Shown here: one piece after another, positions 27,169 to 29,924 of the stretch | Position numbering within the stretch: position 1 is the first letter of the stretch | Layout: every line of letters begins with the position of its first letter | NCBI RefSeq assembly: GCF_029589435.1 | Contig: NZ_JARRAG010000001.1 | Span: forward strand, 1,478,808-1,542,807 | Length of the DNA: 64,000 nt | DNA from: Paludisphaera mucosa | GTDB lineage: Bacteria; Planctomycetota; Planctomycetia; Isosphaerales; Isosphaeraceae | Direction of reading: 5' to 3' | The notes under the pieces: model-generated | What the model was told of the DNA's origin: nothing | Seen by the model: only the letters and a program-made list of their open reading frames with translations | The model's database searches: none | Translations under genes and position numbers: made by a program

Positions 27169-28230
27169 TCAGTAAGAGTCGGCGCCCACCACTTCGCCCC
27201 CCGCCCGCGTGGCCAGGGCGCGATACGCGGCCTTGTCGATCTGGTCGCGGATATAGCGGACGGACCCGTCGACCATAGCGAACTGGGCCCCGCCGGGGTG
27301 CATGCTTCGGAAGCCCATGTTGCCGTAGTCGACGCAGGCCGGGACGTTGATCCAGTCGTTGGGGTAGAAGGCCGTCCCCAGGCAGTCGATCAGGCCGTCG
27401 ATCCCCCGGTCGTGCTTGCCGTTCAGCCGCGGCACCGCCGTCGCCCCGCCGGTGATGCGCAAGTCGTAGAGCGAACCGGCGACCTGGCCTGGGCCGTCCC
27501 ACCAGCCGCCCACGAAATTGGTGTAGAACGACGACCCCCCCGGCTCGTCGCGGAACCGCGAGGACTCGCCGAAGAGGAACGTGTTGCTCGTCCCGTCGGC
27601 GAAGGCCGAGATCGGGAAGGTCCAGTTCGTGCCGAAGGCGCCGTCGCCCGGGACCTGGTTGCAGATCTGCGGGAACTGGCCGGTCGGGTCGGGCAGCGTC
27701 GAGGTGTTGGCCCAGCTCGTCAGGTACTGATCCTCCAGCCCGTTGCTGGTGGCGTACGAGGCCTGGGGATAGGGGAACAAGGTTTCGCCCGGCCGCGTGT
27801 ACGTCGAGTCGGACGGGCAGAGATAGCTCGCGACGACGATCGAGCCGGCCGTGATGTTCACCCGGTTGTTGTAGACCCGGGTCAGGTTGAAGGCGTTGTA
27901 GCCGTTCGCCCCTTCCAGGAACGGCAGGATGTAGCAGAAGGTCGTGTGGGCCAGCTGCGCCTGGAAGTCGCAGGGCTCCGGGATCGCCGGCGAGTAGGGG
28001 GTCCTCGATATCGACCGGCGGCCGAACGGCAGGCTGCCGGCGGCGGATTCGTAGTTGATCGCCCCGAGTGCGAGCTGCTTCAGGTTGTTGGCGCACTGCG
28101 AACGTCGGGCGGCCTCGCGGGCCGCCTGGACGGCCGGGAGCAACAGGGCGATCAGGACCGCGATGATCGCGATCACCACGAGCAGTTCGATCAGGGTGAA
28201 TCCCGGCCGAGGCATTCGATGGCGTTGCAT
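27169..28230 (-). CDS. DUF1559 domain protein with prepilin-type leader
   Basis: The 353 residues begin [35 protein letters not shown], a prepilin leader with Glu at +5, then the DUF1559 opening ([25 protein letters not shown]). The end has [17 protein letters not shown], the conserved family motif. In-frame ATGs at 28245 and 28215 are alternatives; no strong Shine-Dalgarno decides. A lipoprotein gene follows. Likely an envelope protein of the planctomycete pseudopilin-like class; function unknown. Confidence 0.85.
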
Positions 28231-28892
28231 GATCGGAGTTCCCATGGAGAGTCCACCCGCACTGTCTGCGATCGCACGCGGCGTCGCGCCAACCTCGGCC
28301 GCTTCCGCCACCGGGCGGCGACGCCTCATCGACCCGAGATCGTGATCGAAGGTTCGAGCCGGCACGACCGGACGACAACTAACAACGCCGCGACTCCCGG
28401 AACCTTACGGGCCGGGAGCGGGCGAGCCCGAATCCCTCGGGTAAGAGGTCACCATGACTGATCGAAAAGGGCCGCACGCACGCGAAATTTCATGAGATCA
28501 AGGCCGCAAGCTGCTCTGGACGCCAAATGCGAAGTTTAATTTTACCATTCACCCGTGATTTCAAGCCAAAGTAAAGGATGTCACTTCGACGAATTCTTGA
28601 TGAAAATATCGAGCAATCTTCGATCCGACCGAGATTTTCACGTCTGGATTCGGCCGCCGTGCCGGCATTATGACGCGGCTGCGGGGCCGCGCCCTCCCCG
28701 GCGGATGCGCTTGACCCTCCCGCGCCCCCGGGGATACGATGGATCGGTCGCCCCCCGAGACCGAAGTCGACATGGGCGGGGGGCCGGTCTTCCTTCGACA
28801 ATCAGGGGCGGGCCGCCGGCGCGGGGGGCTTGAGAGCGGAGATTCTCAGGGTTTCGTCGACGGGCGGCGGGTCGCAAGGCGGTGGATCGATC
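28231..28892. other. Long divergent intergenic region
   Basis: About 660 bases between the DUF1559 gene (minus) and thiSG (plus). About 28495-28640 is AT-rich against a GC-rich background. The plus side carries a good sigma-70-like pair at 28711-28740. No TPP riboswitch hallmarks (CTGAGA, ACCCTT, CTGGATAATG) are seen before the thiamine gene. No convincing gene. Confidence 0.5.
28711..28740 (+). promoter_or_regulatory. Possible promoter of the thiSG-helicase pair
   Basis: TTGACC and TACGAT are separated by 18 bases. The implied 5' leader is about 145 bases. Confidence 0.4.
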
Positions 28893-29924
28893 GTGGAGAT
28901 CTCGCTCAACGGCCAGAAGCGCGACGTGCCGGACGCCTTGACGGTCGCCCGACTCCTCGGACTCCTGGAACTCAAGCCCGAACACGTCGCGGTCGAGCTG
29001 AACCGCGACCTCGTGACGCGTTCGCGACACGCCGGCACGCCGATCTCGGCCGGCGACGCGGTGGAGATCGTCACGCTCGTCGGCGGCGGCTCGGCCGAGG
29101 CCGACGAACCCGGTTCGTCCCCGCTGACGATCGGCTCCCACACGGTCCGCAGCCGCCTGTTCGTGGGGACCGGCAAATACGCCACGCTGGAACTCATGCG
29201 CGAGTGCCTCGAGGCCAGCGGCGCCGACGTCGTGACGGTCGCCGTCCGCCGCGAGCGGCTCGTCGACCGCGAGGGCCGCAGCCTGCTCGATTTCCTGGAT
29301 CCGAAGCGGTTCACGATCCTGCCCAACACCGCCGGCTGCTTCAACGCCGAGGACTCCCTCCGCACCGCCCGCCTCGGCCGCGAGTTGCTTCAGGGGCTCG
29401 GCAATCCCGGGGCCGACTGGGTGAAGCTGGAAGTGCTCGCCGATCCGCGGACCCTGCTCCCGGATCCCGTGGCGACGCTCGAAGCCACCAAGGTCCTCGT
29501 CGCGGAGGGCTTCCAGGTCCTCTGCTACACCAGCGACGACCCGATCATGGCCCGTCGCCTGAAGGAGGCGGGGGCCGCGTCGGTCATGCCCGCCGGGAGC
29601 CCGATCGGCAGCGGCCAGGGCGTGCTCAACCCCAACAACATCCGGATCATCCTGGAAGACCTCAAGGGCGACGACCCCAGCTACCCGGTGATCATCGACG
29701 CCGGCGTCGGGACGGCCAGCGACGTCGCCTTCGCCATGGAGCTCGGCTGCGACGGCGTCCTGCTCAATACCGGGATCGCCGGCGCGGCCGACCCGCTGCG
29801 GATGGCCCGCGCCATGAGGCTGGCCGTCGAGGCCGGTCGGCTGGCGGCGGGCGCCGGCCGGATCCCCAAGAAGTTGTATGCGACCGCGTCGAGCCCGACC
29901 CAGGGATTGATCGGGCGGAACTGA
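28893..29924 (+). CDS. thiSG: ThiS-ThiG fusion: sulfur carrier joined to thiazole synthase
   Basis: Of 343 residues, 1-66 are a ThiS ubiquitin-like domain ([21 protein letters not shown] ... [10 protein letters not shown]), and 75-343 are ThiG. ThiG makes the thiazole ring of thiamine from deoxyxylulose 5-phosphate, dehydroglycine and sulfur from ThiS thiocarboxylate. Its Schiff-base lysine is Lys178 (DWVKLEV), and GIAGAADP and SSPTQG are typical phosphate-site segments. ThiS needs its C-terminal Gly-Gly free; here Gly64-66 is followed by an acidic linker ([10 protein letters not shown]) and then ThiG. Start: GTG at 28893, because it opens the ThiS fold and has AAGGCGGTGGA upstream; a TTG at 28830 would add 21 residues. 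Confidence 0.85.

Follow-up and report, generated by a model that had tools for sequence, protein, structure and literature searches.

Paludisphaera mucosa encodes a ThiS-ThiG fusion that carries the Gly-Gly of ThiS inside the polypeptide chain, and comparison across relatives suggests that a protease probably cleaves the fusion after this Gly-Gly, between Gly66 and Ser67. The gene lies in a 64,000-nucleotide stretch of the genome (the window), and its features are collected in Table 1. The original prediction of a ThiS-ThiG fusion with an internal Gly-Gly is borne out by the open frame and by the profiles for both domains. The NCBIfam thiS model TIGR01683 matches residues 3–66 with 67.5 bits against a cut-off of 37.45, and the match spans model positions 1–64 of 64, stopping on the last Gly of the GGG. 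The Pfam ThiG model PF05690 matches residues 80–335 with 334 bits. The predicted order of Gly64-66, linker, and ThiG also holds, with the GGG at 64–66 and the linker at 67–76. The Gly-Gly of the encoded protein is not at a free C terminus; the linker and ThiG come after it. The start codon is either GTG at 28893 or TTG at 28830, both in frame. The closest named match is a protein of Paludisphaera soli (93% across the full protein). The genome carrying the fusion is 8.2 Mb in 9 contigs with a completeness of 100. The neighboring genes were read by eye: a pilin-like gene lies upstream (27169–28365, minus strand), a DinG-like helicase lies downstream, and no further thi gene was noticed.

Table 1. 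Features of the ThiS-ThiG fusion gene, in window positions
Feature	Position	Strand	Basis and remarks
ThiS-ThiG fusion gene	28893..29924	+	Open frame, 343 aa plus stop; TIGR01683 and PF05690
ThiS domain, residues 1–66, GGG end	28893..29090	+	TIGR01683; pLDDT block means 93–96 (residues 1–60)
Gly64-Gly65-Gly66, proposed P3–P1	29082..29090	+	Bond 66–67 falls between bases 29090 and 29091
10-residue linker, residues 67–76	29091..29120	+	Low conservation; pLDDT <50 at 66–73
ThiG (thiazole synthase) domain, residues 77–343	29121..29921	+	PF05690; structure match

An AlphaFold model of the fusion, based on an alignment of 57 fusions with the window's own among them, has a mean pLDDT of 85.5. The best structural matches of its ThiG part are the ThiG entries 5z9y, 1tyg, and 1xm3 (Z 31.6). 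The superposition on 1tyg_A (Z 31.6) has an rmsd of 2.3 with 237 residues aligned and 51% identity. Residues V177, K178, L179, and E180 are invariant across the 57 aligned fusions, and Lys178 in this VKLE stretch is presumably the ThiG active-site Lys. The model places the proposed cut, Gly66-Ser67, within a stretch predicted to be flexible (pLDDT <50; Table 1).

The adenylation and thiocarboxylation of ThiS need a free C-terminal Gly. Cleavage after Gly66 is therefore proposed. The product of the fusion gene would be a pro-protein, and a protease would cut it after Gly66, with Ser67 as the P1' residue, to release ThiS with a GGG end and ThiG, both in their usual form. The MoeB/ThiF-type E1 (C1:2218884) would adenylate the released ThiS, which would then be thiocarboxylated. 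ThiO would provide dehydroglycine, and ThiG would make the thiazole ring as usual. The cutting protease would most likely be the Mec+/desampylase-like JAMM metalloprotease encoded beside cysK (C2:1967621). The same requirement of a free C-terminal Gly for adenylation and thiocarboxylation is described for MoaD in passages of PMC4326299.

The genome was checked for a separate ThiS, and none was found. A PF02597 search (E 10) returned three carriers, the fusion included, and no second TIGR01683 ThiS was present among the remaining PF02597 matches at E 0.001. The two other PF02597 proteins both lack a TIGR01683 match; one belongs to the SAMP1/MoaD family, and the other is a MoaD-like domain. The former is an 89-residue carrier that ends in AVAGG, lies between thrC and an E1 gene, and scores 59 bits against the NF041918 SAMP1 cut-off of 60. 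The MoaD-like domain (C1:925664; L002 877–1740) stands behind a MocA-like nucleotidyltransferase and ends in PPVSGGGR, with residues past the GG. It scores 58.2 bits with the MoaD model TIGR01682, below the cut-off of 66.15, and was named MoaD-type because no other carrier profile fits it better and because a frame that resembles MoaE by eye follows it. Two proteins pass the E1 (ThiF) cut-off, the neighbor of the 89-residue carrier and a member of a second cluster. This cluster (L015 3528–7271; C2:3605500–3609300) is a bacterial ubiquitin-like conjugation cassette. It holds a 97-aa Ubl ending in VVAG, an E2-like protein, an E1, and a JAB; the Ubl and the E2 were named by eye, and the E1 and the JAB by profile matches. 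The MoeB/ThiF-type protein is the single E1 outside this cassette. The other E1 belongs to the cassette, and thus ThiS is probably served by the E1 that adjoins the 89-residue carrier. ThiO is present (L281, C2:518554) with 297 bits, above the cut-off. The ThiO match falls in an open frame of 1073 aa, which may be a further fusion or may simply have stayed open over this length because the DNA is G+C-rich. A ThiH profile search of the genome gave nothing above the cut-off.

The fusion is fixed in the family. All 45 genomes of the Isosphaeraceae-like family have a match, and the gene is fused in 43 of the 43 genomes with a readable junction; in the remaining two the locus is interrupted by contig ends. 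The identical fused frame in all 43 rules out sequencing error or chance read-through. Outside the family, fusions occur in Gemmataceae-like genomes, in Pan216 (L248), in a genome of another family (G003), and in the alphaproteobacterium Tistrella mobilis. Among the unfused relatives, a free thiS is visible in 89 loci and terminates exactly at GG(G)-stop in 86, as counted by a script that chose the shortest tail whenever more than one pattern fitted; the three exceptions include L047, probably a false pattern match, and a further 17 unfused loci have no visible thiS. Twenty-six additional unfused loci were read, four of them without a visible thiS, and in the other 22 thiS likewise stops exactly at GG(G). 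The unfused thiS is often in frame with thiG and few codons upstream. A thiS that ends at GG(G)-stop, often in frame before thiG, suggests that the fusion arose when a single stop codon was lost, which would have happened more than once.

On a ThiG tree with 173 rows, 69 of them fused, the fused state must have changed at least nine times, and well-supported branches force three of these changes; it is a quick tree in which 74 of 170 inner branches are weak. All 43 Isosphaeraceae rows fall together, and the loci L171–L184 and L189, copies of family genomes, were omitted. The class sample held 118 genomes, and 115 were classed as fused or unfused from the locus sequence, by reading or by script; G406 (a fragment) and G474 and G482 (without a ThiG match) were dropped. 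Reading of the remaining class genomes confirmed the predicted state in 26/26 unfused and 14/14 fused cases. Two apparent irregularities did not hold up. A supposed internal stop in the G427 fusion is the normal stop at the end of ThiG, and G468, considered as a split gene, is fused with a long linker.

The junction was compared across 67 distinct fused proteins that could be parsed. The last two Gly are invariant (67/67), and the residue just before them is Gly in all but one protein (66/67), which has Ser. The mean frequency of the commonest residue is 0.97 for VTLVGGG, 0.33 for the linker, 0.615 for the rest of the ThiS domain, and 0.84 for ThiG. Fourteen further fused loci all have GGG. 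Three loci at contig ends (L059, L061, and L174) stand outside the 67, and GGG was seen by eye in each; L023 and L105 were not among the parsed loci, the G087 locus was re-read later, and L078 was added by hand. The original prediction had proposed the conservation of the GG and the linker in relatives as a check. The GG was lost in no fused relative that was read, and the linker is variable. A Gly-Gly that had fallen into disuse would not be expected to stay so strict beside a free-running linker.

This pattern bears on the idea that the fusion stays uncleaved, with ThiG supplied by some other sulfur source (free sulfide, or a different carrier such as the SAMP1-like protein) and the ThiS domain persisting as a docking relic. 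The E1 gene does have a neighboring SAMP1/CysO-like carrier whose GG is free, and the solved complex 4n6e joins BexX, a relative of ThiG, to CysO. A relic tail, however, should not be stricter than the rest of its ThiS domain (0.97 versus 0.615), and the GG is kept in 67/67 fusions while the adjacent linker changes freely. We consider an uncleaved fusion improbable. Free ThiS might also arise through recoding, by a frameshift or a stop at the GGG codons, and a GGC-rich run does precede the linker. The Gly codons at the GG vary among the fusions, however, with all four used. Stops in the other two frames occur within ~13 codons in 17/67 and 13/67 fusions and within 3 codons in 1 and 6 of 67, and the residues after the GG would still need to be absent. 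The variable codons and the rarity of nearby stops make recoding very improbable. The residue after the GG is S in 34 fusions, A in 25, G in 4, E in 2, and Q in 2 (n = 67). Ser as the commonest P1' residue (34/67) would suit self-cleavage by an N-to-O shift at Gly-Ser, with no protease involved, but the A, G, E, or Q of the other 33/67 has neither a hydroxyl nor a thiol, and we give this chemistry the least credence of all.

Cleavage after the GG by a protease, the reading we prefer, was also considered in the light of the other sulfur carriers of the family. The sample of MoaD-type carriers was one per genome, hand-picked from the PF02597 rows, in 39 of the 45 family genomes; only the carrier of the present genome has a score with the MoaD profile. 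All 39 domains end in GG, and the chain extends beyond the GG in 30/39. Twenty-seven of these extensions are 2–21 unconserved residues, and three run into a longer chain. The first residue past the GG is S in 14, G in 6, A in 5, E in 2, T in 2, and V in 1, which resembles the ThiS fusions. A fortieth carrier, L164, has the tail GR and is outside the count. Two of the extended carriers deserve mention as MoaX-like fusions: in L302 and L310 (G423 and G424) the MoaD-type GG runs into a chain that looks MoaE-like by eye. In L309 (G396) a different chain of >80 residues follows the GG; again by eye, it may resemble the N-terminal domain of type II secretion ATPases. A plasmid search intended as a MoaD control gave no match, and the counts of MoaD-type tails cover the family.

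The SAMP1-like carrier is masked rarely. Thirty carrier loci were read, and the four without a SAMP1-like end were omitted; 23 of the other 26 end at GG and 3/26 end in GGSV. The GGSV carriers (L153, L158, and L163) all belong to genus g283 and have AVAGGSV in place of AVAGG. Two free ThiS proteins also have covered ends. The ThiS of G441 ends in GGGS, and this genome is one of only two in the class that are unfused and yet have a strong JAMM; the ThiS of L237 ends in GGGA, and the placement of its ThiG among those of Gemmataceae-like genomes is weakly supported. Masked tails would be expected in a lineage whose carriers are trimmed after GG by a protease, and they would be hard to explain if the carriers needed their final C terminus from the start.

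Two JAMM genes in the genome pass the Prok-JAB cut-off, one beside cysK and one in the cassette. E. coli, included as a control for this profile, gave a match as well. The JAMM beside cysK (C2:1967621) scores 78.6 bits and has an intact HxHx7Sx2D motif, HSHPRWEAIPSRTD. Its score with the desampylase model NF041370 is 73.5 bits, below the cut-off of 130, and it is related to desampylase but is not an equivalog. A JAMM above 65 bits is present in 43/45 family genomes; the two without a high-scoring JAMM are G404 (81% complete) and G407 (83% complete). The HxHx7Sx2D motif is present in 30/30 family JAMM loci read, and cysK lies in the fetched flank of 28/30. In the class, a JAMM at E 1e-13 or better is found in 55/56 fused and 2/59 unfused genomes, a line chosen after the scores were seen; at the curated 25-bit cut-off the counts are 56/56 and 19/59. 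Fisher's exact test on the E 1e-13 table gives 3e-29, a value that treats kin as independent and is not credible at face value. On the ThiG tree, 54 rows are fused with a JAMM, 3 fused without, 13 unfused with, and 40 unfused without. Supported branches yield only three independent pairs. On average, JAMM and fusion occur together in 1.7 of these pairs, and in none are they opposed; a sign test of the association on the three pairs is not significant. The JAMM-fusion association follows clades and is confounded by ancestry.

The exceptions run in both directions. G484 (94% complete) is fused and lacks a high-scoring JAMM, and its near-identical sister G461 has one. The survey of the phylum found a JAMM at E 1e-10 in 158/392 genomes, many of them unfused, and the genomes that were fused among the matches listed (G000, G377, and G003) all have a JAMM at this level. 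G463, an unfused genome of the same class, has a JAMM and an unmasked ThiS, as do at least 10 unfused phylum genomes outside the class. Read most simply, the JAMM would make the fusion possible without demanding it. The JAMM sits beside cysK, so a role in the cysteine pathway could account for its presence without ThiS, and we count this against its assignment to the fusion. On balance we lean toward the cysK-linked JAMM as the protease that would cut the fusion, an assignment made with less confidence than that of cleavage itself.

The cut after the GG might instead be made by the second JAMM, that of the Ubl-E2-E1-JAB cassette, or by an unrelated protease; this is another form of the cleavage reading and shares in its probability. 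An HTHx7Sx2D stretch can be read in the translation of the second JAMM (C2:3608029), no high-scoring JAMM of the first type is present in three of the fused genomes, and the protease that cuts MoaX had yet to be identified in the 2015 paper (PMC4326299). However, the cassette JAMM scores 32 bits only, its own Ubl, E2, and E1 adjoin it and suggest a dedicated role, and within the class it is the high-scoring JAMM that tracks the fusion. Another protease is thus a less likely candidate, though one with a real share. Whichever protease acts, the conserved GG beside a variable linker, the masked MoaD-type carriers, and the JAMM in fused genomes together favor cleavage over a new mechanism. The original prediction had left the choice between a protease that cuts after the GG and a ring formed by a different mechanism; the comparative evidence favors the first and disfavors the second.

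The family relies on the fused ThiS for thiazole, with no second ThiS detected as a fallback. It is conceivable, if rather speculative, that ThiS (fused to ThiG or with one added residue), MoaD (with variable tails or fused to MoaE), and, in one genus, the SAMP1-like carrier share a masked and perhaps regulated state of their GG, with one JAMM as the common switch. If so, one JAMM would switch on sulfur transfer to thiamin, molybdopterin, and cysteine together. The unconserved tails of the MoaD-type carriers suggest that a common GG-exposing protease would let carriers gain tails and fusions freely. Such a protease would be an economical account of how carrier fusions arise and persist.

The fusion was compared with known systems. 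The planctomycete protein shares the ThiG fold with 1tyg, a thiazole synthase/ThiS complex that we take to be from B. subtilis and in which ThiS and ThiG are presumably separate chains. ThiS-ThiG fusions were already listed by Iyer, Burroughs and Aravind in 2006 (PMC1779556), and the same source proposed that JAB proteins cleave fused ThiS and MoaD; it also describes thiamine operons as lacking a JAB. The two fused domains are identical to those described there, and the JAMM of the planctomycetes likewise lies away from the fusion. Unlike the present account, its passages on fusions do not include planctomycetes or masked MoaD tails. We found no report of the planctomycete ThiS-ThiG fusion or of masked MoaD tails in open-licence PubMed Central papers. 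The 2006 JAB suggestion for fused ThiS and MoaD becomes directly testable in this family.

The MoaX protein of M. tuberculosis, a MoaD-MoaE fusion, is cut between Gly82 and Ser83, and the cut is needed for activity; the G81A mutation abolishes both cleavage and function (passages of PMC4326299). Both MoaX and ThiSG join a carrier through Gly-Gly-Ser to the enzyme it serves, and ThiSG keeps the GG within the chain ahead of a non-conserved linker, as processed fusions of the MoaX type would; the cut demonstrated for MoaX would have its counterpart in ThiSG. MoaX differs in belonging to the molybdopterin pathway, in being an extra gene beside moaD1 and moaD2, and in its confinement, among mycobacteria, to one species complex, as that source describes it. 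ThiSG, in contrast, acts in thiamin synthesis, contains the sole ThiS detected, and is fixed in its family. In Deinococcus radiodurans, DRJAMM cleaves the MoaD-MoaE fusion DR2607 (passages of PMC8832034). There, as proposed here, the JAMM gene lies apart from the carrier-enzyme fusion that its product cuts, and the cut leaves a C-terminal Gly; the carrier is MoaD rather than ThiS, and the cleavage, demonstrated for DR2607, is what we infer for ThiSG. The fusion type and the proposal of its cleavage are thus already in print, and the masking of several carriers in one lineage is the interesting part.
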